This document shows, one piece after another, positions 54,758 to 61,403 of a stretch of 64,000 bases of DNA. Origin of the DNA: Prochlorococcus marinus str. MIT 0919. GTDB lineage: Bacteria > Cyanobacteriota > Cyanobacteriia > PCC-6307 > Cyanobiaceae. Where the stretch lies: contig NZ_CP114779.1 in assembly GCF_027359375.1 (NCBI RefSeq), positions 1,116,001 to 1,180,000 on the forward strand. The letters run 5' to 3'. The notes under the pieces are model-generated. The model did no database searches. It had not been told where the DNA came from and worked only from the letters and a program-made list of their open reading frames with translations. Position 1 is the stretch's first letter; the number at the start of each line of letters is the position of its first letter. The position numbers and the translations under genes are program-made.

Positions 54758-55675
54758 ATGAAAGAAACACAATTAACGATTTCTGGAGAAACAAGTTTTG
54801 CAGGAGTCCTTGGAGATCCAGTCTCTCACTCGCTTTCACCAATAATTCAGAATGCAGCTTTGGCAAAATTAAACATAAATTGGTGCTATCTTGCAATTCC
54901 TTGTAGTACTCAAAATCTAGAAGAAGTTATAAAAACACTGAGGAAAATTAATTGTAAGGGGTTAAATATTACAATCCCTCATAAAACTAATGTTTTTGAA
55001 TTGTGTAATGAGGTTAGTCCAATAGCTAGAAAAGTGGGAGCAATCAACACTCTTATTCCAAATGGTGAGAATGGATGGTTAGGTACAAATACAGATGTAG
55101 AAGGGTTTATTAAGCCACTTAAAAAAAACAATGATTTAATCCGAGATAATGCATTAATACTAGGATCAGGTGGAAGTGCAAGGGCTGTAGCTATAGGCCT
55201 TCAAGCACTAGAGTTCTCAAATATTACAATTATAAGTAGAAATGAGCAATCATTAAATGAACTGATTGAATTATTAAATAGTGATCAAAATAAAAACGTA
55301 TCTATAAAAGTCAAAGGAATACTGTCGACAGATATTAATGCGAAGAATTTTATTAAAGATGCAAATTTGATTGTAAACACTACACCAGCAGGAATGCACA
55401 ACAAATTCAATGTAAAAAGTTTAGATTCTATTATTCCATTTGGAGAAAGAATATGGGATGGATTAAATAGTAAATCAGTTCTTTACGATTTAATTTACAC
55501 ACCCATGCCAACTCAATGGCTTAAACTTGGTGCTAAGCATAATTGCAAGCAAATAAATGGATTGGAAATGTTAATCGAACAAGGTGCTGCGTCTCTTCGA
55601 CTTTGGAGTGGAGTAAAAGAAATTCCTATTGATATAATGAATAGAGCTGCAAAAGCTGCTCTTAATCTTAATTAA
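54758..55675 (+). CDS. aroE: Shikimate dehydrogenase AroE
   Basis: AroE reduces 3-dehydroshikimate to shikimate with NADPH. The protein is 305 residues from the ATG at 54758; the track frame back to 54701 adds 19 residues of no family similarity. It has GDPVSHSLSPIIQNAA, NITIPHKTNV with the catalytic Lys, NTDVEGF with the catalytic Asp and the NADP loop LGSGGSARAVAIGL. It is followed closely by a Tic20-like gene. Confidence 0.93.
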   Translation: MKETQLTISGETSFAGVLGDPVSHSLSPIIQNAALAKLNINWCYLAIPCSTQNLEEVIKTLRKINCKGLNITIPHKTNVFELCNEVSPIARKVGAINTLIPNGENGWLGTNTDVEGFIKPLKKNNDLIRDNALILGSGGSARAVAIGLQALEFSNITIISRNEQSLNELIELLNSDQNKNVSIKVKGILSTDINAKNFIKDANLIVNTTPAGMHNKFNVKSLDSIIPFGERIWDGLNSKSVLYDLIYTPMPTQWLKLGAKHNCKQINGLEMLIEQGAASLRLWSGVKEIPIDIMNRAAKAALNLN

Positions 55676-55681
55676 AAAAAA

Positions 55682-56143
55682 ATGACTATTCAAATCTGGC
55701 AAAGAATAATAAGCCTTTTTGTATATATGCTTCCTTTAAGCGATGTGTTGCATCTAGGCAGCAATTTGTTTGCACAGTATCCAATATTAAACTATATTAT
55801 TATTCCTATATTGCCAATAATATTTATTAAAACAAAGATTTTATTAGGAGGTTTATTGCTATTTTTGTGTTTATTTTTTGGTGTTGTTAAAAATACAGAA
55901 ATAGCATTTTTTATCCGGTTTAATACAATGCAGGCGCTACTATTAAATATTGCAATTATAATTGGAATTTACGTCATAGATATAATCATTAAGCCATTAG
56001 GAAACTATTTATTAGTTCAAGTTGCATCTAATATAGTTTTTATAACAACTTTAGGAATCACAATTTTTGCAATAACAAAATGCGTAGCTGGAAAAGAACC
56101 TGATATACCAATAATTAGCGATGCAGTACGAATACAAATTTGA
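55682..56143 (+). CDS. Tic20 / Ycf60-like membrane protein
   Basis: The 153-residue protein has four hydrophobic helices and the Tic20-type layout: an N-terminal WQRIISLFVYMLPLSD and an IRFNTMQALLLNIAI segment in the middle. In plants Tic20 is part of the inner envelope protein import channel; cyanobacterial members have no settled role. It starts 6 bases after aroE and probably shares its transcript. Confidence 0.82.
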   Translation: MTIQIWQRIISLFVYMLPLSDVLHLGSNLFAQYPILNYIIIPILPIIFIKTKILLGGLLLFLCLFFGVVKNTEIAFFIRFNTMQALLLNIAIIIGIYVIDIIIKPLGNYLLVQVASNIVFITTLGITIFAITKCVAGKEPDIPIISDAVRIQI

Positions 56144-56173
56144 ATAAAAGACCATAAAAGTATATTGTGGTAA

Positions 56174-56213
56174 TTCCGTCGCTCATTCAATGAGCCAATA
56201 GTCCTTGTCGGAA
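56174..56213 (+). promoter_or_regulatory. Two-tier hairpin in the rpsF leader that covers the ribosome binding site
   Basis: The lower stem pairs TTCCG (56174-56178) with CGGAA (56209-56213), and the upper hairpin GCTCA-TTCAA-TGAGC (56181-56195) stacks above it. The GGAA that serves as the ribosome binding site, seven bases before the rpsF ATG, is buried in the lower stem. This would let a ligand such as S6 (or S6:S18) control translation. It is my reading of complementarity, not a tested structure. Confidence 0.45.
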
Positions 56214-56219
56214 CACTGA

Positions 56220-56828
56220 ATGTCTAAACAGCCTTACTACGAAACCATGTACATTCTTCGTCCTACCATTCCGGAGGATGAAGTTGATAGTCATCTGAAA
56301 AAATACACAGAGATATTGGAAGGAGCCGGTGGAGAAGTTTTAGATAGTCAAATGCGAGGTAAAAGAAGACTTGCCTATCCAATTGGAAAACATAAAGAAG
56401 GTATTTATGTTCAATTAAGCCACAAAGGCAATGGCGAGCATATAGCAGTTCTTGAAAAAGCTATGCGCTTGACAGAAGACGTAATTAGATTCCTAACAGT
56501 CAAACAATATGGTCCTCTGCCTACAAAAAGGGCTCCAAAAACAGATTCAAAAGATCACAAAAATGATAATGATAATGCAGCTAAAACAGATTCAAAAGAT
56601 CACAAAAATGATAATGATAATGATAATGCAGCTAAAACAGATTCAAAAGCTGATGATACAGTTAAAGCAAATGTAAAAGATAATGCAGCTAAAACAGATT
56701 CAAAAGCTAATGATACAGCTAAAGCAAATGTGAAGGATAATGCAGCTAAATCAGATCAAGAGAGTAAGGTAGATGAAAGCACTAAAGAAGTAAAAATAAA
56801 AGATTCAGAAGGTAGCAAAAAAGAATAA
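56220..56828 (+). CDS. rpsF: 30S ribosomal protein S6 with a long charged repeat tail
   Basis: S6 binds the 16S central domain together with S18. Residues about 1-100 are a normal S6 domain ([44 protein letters not shown]). Then comes a tail of about 97 residues rich in Lys, Asp, Asn and Ala. It holds four imperfect repeats that start with KTDSK and end with AA (positions 56538-56747), and no such tail is needed for the family's ribosome function. The frame is intact to the stop at 56828. The identification of S6 is firm; the tail is unusual. Confidence 0.95.
56538..56747 (+). repeat. In-frame tandem repeats in the rpsF tail
   Basis: Four adjacent units start with AAAACAGATTCAAAAG and end with AATGCAGCT: 56538-56582 (45 bases), 56583-56633 (51), 56634-56690 (57) and 56691-56747 (57). 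All are multiples of three and keep the reading frame. The first two share GATCACAAAAATGATAATGAT, and the last two share a different middle. Unit 2 differs from unit 1 by one extra GATAAT, which suggests slippage. Confidence 0.9.
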
Positions 56829-56846
56829 TTCAATCAGGCTATTCTT

Positions 56847-58061
56847 TTAATTGCCTTTATTCTTTTGCGATTGTGCCCACAGTTTACTAGGCAAGCCCCA
56901 TACATAGATAAATCCTTCTGCTGATTGATGATCAAATTTATCATTACTGTTATAAGTTGAGAAATCAGACAAATATAAACTACTCTTAATAGATTTTCTA
57001 CCTGAGATAATTGCATTACCTTTGTGTAGTTTAATTTTAACTGAACCATTAACGTCTATTTGTGTTCTATTTATAAAGCCATCTAAAGCATATTTTAAAG
57101 GACTAAACCAAAAGCCTTGATATACCAAATTAGCCCATTGATTCTCTAAATGTAATTTAGTTCGTAAAACATCTGCAGATAAAGTCAAGCTTTCTAATTC
57201 TTGATGTGCTTTTATCAGTAATAGTAGACCAGGTGTTTCATAAATTTCTCTACTTTTGATCCCAACCACTCTATTTTCAATCATATCTATTCGGCCGAAG
57301 CCATGTATCCCTGCAAGATAGTTTGCTTTACGAATGATTGAAATTGGATCTAATGATTCCCCGTCAATTCCGACAGGATTACCAGAGTCAAAAAATATTT
57401 CTATTTCTTGAGCTTCCTCAGGAGCATTTTCAATAGAAGAAGTGATTTGGAAAACTTCTTCAAGAGGTGGTTGATAAGCATCCTCAAGAGAACCAGCTTC
57501 AACACTTCTTCCTAAGAGATTCAAATCAATGGAATATGGCGATTTTTTTGTGACAGGGGCTGGAATGCCAAAACGCTCACTATACGCAATTACTTCTTCC
57601 CTACTCATCCCCCATGAGCGAGCTGGTGTTAAAACTTTCAATTCAGGAGCCAGTGTTCCAATAGCAATATCAAAGCGAACTTGATCATTCCCTTTGGCTG
57701 TACAACCATGTGCGACTGCATCTGCTTTGAAATCCTTTGCTATTTCTACTAAACGTCTAGAGATTAAAGGTCTAGCTAAAGCAGTAGAAAGAGGGTATTT
57801 ACCTTCATAAAGGGCGTTTGCTCTAATTGCTGGAAAAGCAAATTCCTCTATAAAAGGCTTTACTAGATCATCTACTAAAGATATAGATGCACCAGCAGAA
57901 AGTGCTTTTTGTCTAATTGGTTCTAACTCTTCTCCTTGGCCCAAATCAGCTGCAAATGCAACAACTTCCTCCACACCATATTCATTCATTAAATATGGAA
58001 TACAAGCACTAGTGTCAACTCCACCTGAATAAGCTAGAACAACCTTTTTAACGTGACTCAT
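56847..58061 (-). CDS. argG: Argininosuccinate synthase ArgG
   Basis: ArgG joins citrulline and aspartate with ATP, the next to last step of arginine synthesis. The 404-residue protein has the PP-loop [18 protein letters not shown], a [14 protein letters not shown] segment and the family motif [12 protein letters not shown]-type (here [15 protein letters not shown]). Length is normal. It is the second gene after a small membrane protein, 12 bases apart. Confidence 0.96.
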
Positions 58062-61314: not shown

Positions 61315-61364
61315 ACCATTTCAGTAAAGTAATGGCTTCATAATCGAATATGGAGACAATAAAA

Positions 61365-61403
61365 CTAAAGAAAATATAAACAATAAGCTAAAGAAAATAT
61401 AAA
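61365..61403. repeat. Direct repeat in the gap upstream of sps
   Basis: CTAAAGAAAATATAAA occurs at 61365-61380 and again at 61388-61403, a period of 23 bases. Both copies are in the 178-base gap between the sps start and the uvrA end. AT-rich repeats could arise by slippage; no function is indicated. Confidence 0.6.

Follow-up and report, generated by a model that had tools for sequence, protein, structure and literature searches.

The window, by which we mean the whole stretch of 64,000 nucleotides analysed here, carries at positions 56220..56828 of the + strand the gene rpsF, an open frame that codes for a ribosomal protein S6 (bS6) of 202 amino acids. Its product matches TIGR00166 (NCBIfam; E 4.7e-21) over residues 7-96 with 74.8 bits, above the cut-off of 42.9, and PF01250 (E 2.2e-27) over residues 7-95 with 95.5 bits, above the cut-off of 27. 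No other S6 match exists in the genome, a single contig of 1,716,770 bases. The conserved S6 domain (residues 7-96; 56238..56507, + strand) is defined by the NCBIfam match and by the AlphaFold2 model, in which the core has a pLDDT of mostly 82-93 and follows the beta-alpha-beta-beta-alpha-beta order. The domain is normal and the protein is otherwise an ordinary bS6. A convergent frame on the other strand (56847-58061) ends 18 bases past the rpsF stop codon, and no Rfam match with an E value of 1 or below was found around rpsF (positions 55600-57000).

Downstream from the domain the gene continues through four repeat units that are read in frame from 56538 to 56747 and display, each of them, the pattern KTDSK...AA. 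The unit lengths of 45, 51, 57 and 57 bases given in a preliminary description of this DNA were confirmed. Unit 1 (56538..56582, + strand; 45 nt, 15 residues) opens an array detected by TRF at 56538-56706. Unit 2 (56583..56633, + strand; 51 nt, 17 residues) is distinguished from unit 1 solely by one GATAAT hexamer, and a hexamer array is found at 56607-56628. Unit 3 (56634..56690, + strand; 57 nt, 19 residues) lies in a TRF array spanning 56622-56756 with 93% matches, and is followed by unit 4 (56691..56747, + strand; 57 nt, 19 residues). The last two units differ at 4 of their 57 bases, two of the changes being silent and two changing the amino acid. At the protein level the units correspond to 51 residues followed by the 19 residues of the fourth. 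The tail is completed by a non-repeat Lys/Glu-rich end of 26 residues (56748..56825, + strand) that opens like a worn unit (KSDQESK). The charged nature of the tail and its Lys/Glu-rich end were thus described correctly at the outset, its size less so: positions 56538-56825 code for 96 residues, the figure of 97 including the stop codon. Hydrophobic residues account for 7% of the tail and charged residues for 46%.

The TRF score of the rpsF array (235) is the highest of the 64-kb window. The next strongest array of the window (61356-61403), in which an A-rich unit of 23 bp occurs twice, has a score of 82. Shuffling the codons of the tail led us to reject a chance origin of the rpsF array from low-complexity codons: the best array in 2,000 shuffles scored 120, even if chance does produce weak ones (score 40-60). 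A search of the whole genome with the 23-nt repeat junction, allowing up to 3 mismatches, gave four matches, all of them in rpsF, and the reversed control gave none. Confinement of the junction to this gene argues against a mobile or shared source of the repeat, which was ruled out. All the units, as well as the 6-nt hexamer, keep the reading frame, a behaviour at odds with a phase-variable (on/off) contingency locus. The whole-codon differences between units had been read as a mark of selection on frame. This is weak evidence, as 225 of the 269 arrays in codon-shuffled tails also have a period that is a multiple of three; the bias being equal without selection, such a period is no proof of it.

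In the AlphaFold2 model, built on an alignment of 7 sequences, residues 112-135 and 137-199 have a pLDDT below 50 and no secondary structure. Low pLDDT through nearly all of the tail and the scarcity of hydrophobic residues are those of an intrinsically disordered region (a prediction), so that the tail is probably disordered, as had been anticipated. Most matches among solved structures stop at the S6 domain and none of them holds information on the window's tail.

The S6 tail was compared in 151 distinct proteins of the same family that have a recognisable domain end, with one genome per species and tail length counted from the LPT motif. Six S6 proteins without the exact motif were set aside (four with charged tails alike, one with a short Ala/Pro tail and one distant Anaerolineae protein). 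The low-GC group (local GC under 45%) comprises 84 of the 151 tails. All of these are open and charged, with a length of 29-111 residues (median 53) and a net charge from +1 to -11. The 67 high-GC tails are Ala/Pro-rich and have 16-45 residues (median 24). A frameshift that would place the tail out of frame was sought in the relatives and not found, every relative read having an open tail in the S6 frame. The window's tail is not exceptional: a charged S6 tail was present in every AT-rich relative examined, with a strong array in roughly one out of four. Within the low-GC group only one tail is longer than the window's, whose composition is an outlier, first of 84 for Asp and last (84 of 84) for Glu. 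Tail length correlates negatively with GC (Spearman -0.83 overall and -0.39 within the low-GC set), a descriptive relation that is uncorrected for shared ancestry. The same holds for the correlations of GC with the charged fraction (Spearman -0.71) and with Ala/Pro/Gly content (+0.74), also uncorrected for shared ancestry.

Strong arrays (TRF score of 100 or more) are present in 22 of the 84 low-GC tails, whereas codon-shuffled sets have 0.05 on average and 1 at most. At the threshold for weak arrays (score of 40 or more) the count is 41 of 84 versus about 13 from codon shuffling, so the weak ones are partly due to chance. Unit lengths span 9-66 nt, and even between the two units most alike 21% of the bases differ. 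A tree built from the S6-core DNA requires at least 17 gains or losses of the array state, a rough number because the core has only 285 nt and the tree is weakly resolved. Arrays thus arose repeatedly, with different units, at one place in S6. The expectation that tail length and repeat number vary among related Prochlorococcus genomes was borne out by this S6 comparison. Copy number differs between lineages, as in a VNTR, the variation being between species and involving different arrays and lengths. The longest tail (111 residues) belongs to a genome that we take to be P. marinus SS120 (L107) and contains 9.5 copies of a 27-nt unit with 100% matches. Identity of its copies indicates that this array is probably a very recent expansion. 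The S6 of AG-402-G22 (L032), identical to that of another genome (L064), has 7.5 copies of a 24-base unit. The largest genus in the set (g18), which presumably includes MIT9312 of the high-light group since one of its genomes fits that strain, has a strong array in only one of its 24 tails, and 19 of the 24 are exactly 53 residues long. Some lineages thus expand the tail often, others seldom.

There is no reliable alignment of the window's own tail with those of its relatives, and selection was for this reason estimated in a related genus, using 19 genomes with aligned 53-residue tails. Their tails have a dN/dS of 0.75, as compared to 0.023 for the core. The tail pN/pS is as low when read out of frame (0.72 in the +1 frame), and these ratios alone are thus no proof of coding constraint. 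The length of the g18 tails (e.g., L046-L049, L148-L154) is held despite an almost neutral drift of their sequence. Coding constraint is shown by the choice of residues. Only 2 aromatic or Cys residues were seen in the 4,189 codons of the low-GC tails versus 166 expected from base composition. Codons with A or C at the second position make up 89% of the total. The alternative frames are mostly closed (+2 in every tail) and the +1 frame is open in 15 of the 84 tails. The sequence changes but coarse properties of the tail persist. So strong a filter could mean that the tail is not simply tolerated but serves a genuine function independent of its sequence. Nothing was found in favour of the extra role of S6 that had been put forward, the constraint on tail sequence being close to neutral.

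We consider it probable (about 0.7) that rpsF codes for an ordinary bS6 with a long, disordered, charged tail that is almost free in length and sequence and was enlarged by local duplication. A charged tail would have been inherited across the AT-rich lineage and would tolerate nearly any length and sequence provided that it remains in frame, hydrophilic and unfolded. In the window, the segment right after the domain may have been duplicated and then duplicated again, an order suggested by the likeness within the unit pairs 1/2 and 3/4. These events would be due to slippage during replication or to unequal recombination across short direct repeats, and their product would be the two similar unit pairs and a tail of 96 residues after the first residues of KRAP. 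The tail would hang off the 30S platform and have no specific partner. Against complete freedom stand its presence in every AT-rich genome examined, with a minimum of 29 amino acids, and the length of 53 amino acids kept by most g18 tails, which suggest some constraint on presence or length.

These two observations, together with the strongly filtered residue use, also fit a less likely reading in which the tail is a selected, sequence-tolerant charged polyampholyte. Bulk properties and a minimum length would be selected, for instance for electrostatic tuning of the 30S platform or for help in 30S assembly, while the exact sequence drifts. The position of bS6 on the 30S platform, together with bS18 and bS21 (review PMC10931766), is favourable to such a role. 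However, tail composition tracks genome GC (the correlations given above, uncorrected for shared ancestry), about 24 residues suffice in GC-rich relatives, and the low-GC tails span net charges of both signs. A more speculative version, to which we assign little weight, sees the Prochlorococcus S6 tails as a brush of charges on the 30S platform that is selected irrespective of sequence and set in length by repeat expansion; in very small cells short of nutrients it might, for instance, adjust the spacing of ribosomes or the loading of mRNA.

It is also quite improbable that the tail is translated but then clipped, leaving mostly core S6 in the mature ribosome and repeats that do nothing. Disordered tails are prone to proteolysis and near-neutral evolution agrees with such a fate, but there is no direct evidence for it and the hydrophilic residue choice is maintained. 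The least credible proposal is that the tail serves as substrate for a post-translational modification such as that carried out by RimK, which adds glutamates at the bS6 C-terminus in E. coli and Pseudomonas (PMC10931766; PMC7343187). The last residue of the window's S6 is indeed a Glu. Nevertheless, no RimK ligase scores above the curated cut-off in the window's genome (best candidate at 77.7 bits versus 143.4), and this candidate is a glutathione synthase (359 bits versus 39 for the S6--glutamate ligase model). A search of 40 relatives gave RimK-family matches over the cut-off in only five, of which one belongs to the same family. Since RimK was not found in the genome, glutamylation of the E. 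coli type is unlikely for this S6. One member of the family, a genome of 3.0 Mb, carries a RimK-family ligase over the cut-off (G005:C11:42791-43642), unlike the family's other genomes in the search.

The preferred reading, an ordinary bS6 with a duplicated and almost free tail, leaves the picture of S6 function unchanged. The window's tail is real but fairly ordinary and loosely constrained, and is part of the lineage-wide charged S6 tails of AT-rich picocyanobacteria. Its significance is that, in a very abundant photosynthetic group, one of the core ribosomal proteins tolerates a fast-changing, repeat-built tail, predicted to be disordered, in which arrays have formed many times at one place. 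As a natural series, rpsF lends itself to studying the effects on a ribosome of a disordered tail that differs in length and charge. Provided that there is variation within species, typing could make use of its length. No report on a Prochlorococcus S6 tail was found in the literature searched, most subscription papers lying outside this search.

The closest counterparts are the S6 proteins of AT-rich Prochlorococcus-type genomes (AG-402-G22 and those that we presume to be MIT9211 (L061) and SS120), which likewise have charged K/E/D-rich tails, many of them with tandem arrays. They differ from the window's S6 in unit sequence and copy number, and its tail is the most Asp-rich and Glu-poorest of the group. 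Charged ends are not confined to S6: bS16 (rpsP) also has a charged C-terminal end in the window's genome (L181) and in two others (L180 of G078 and L179 of G039). In these three genomes, however, the bS16 proteins show no visible tandem repeats and are of nearly equal length (125-126 amino acids). The bS6 of E. coli and Pseudomonas resembles that of the window in having one S6 domain followed by further residues (solved chains of 131-139 residues), whereas the window's tail is longer, built of repeats and encoded in a genome in which no RimK was found. A long terminal segment is shared as well with the extensions of other ribosomal proteins, some of which (uL3, uL13) adopt an ordered state in mature ribosomes (review PMC11764897), in contrast to the hypervariable and predicted disordered tail of this S6.
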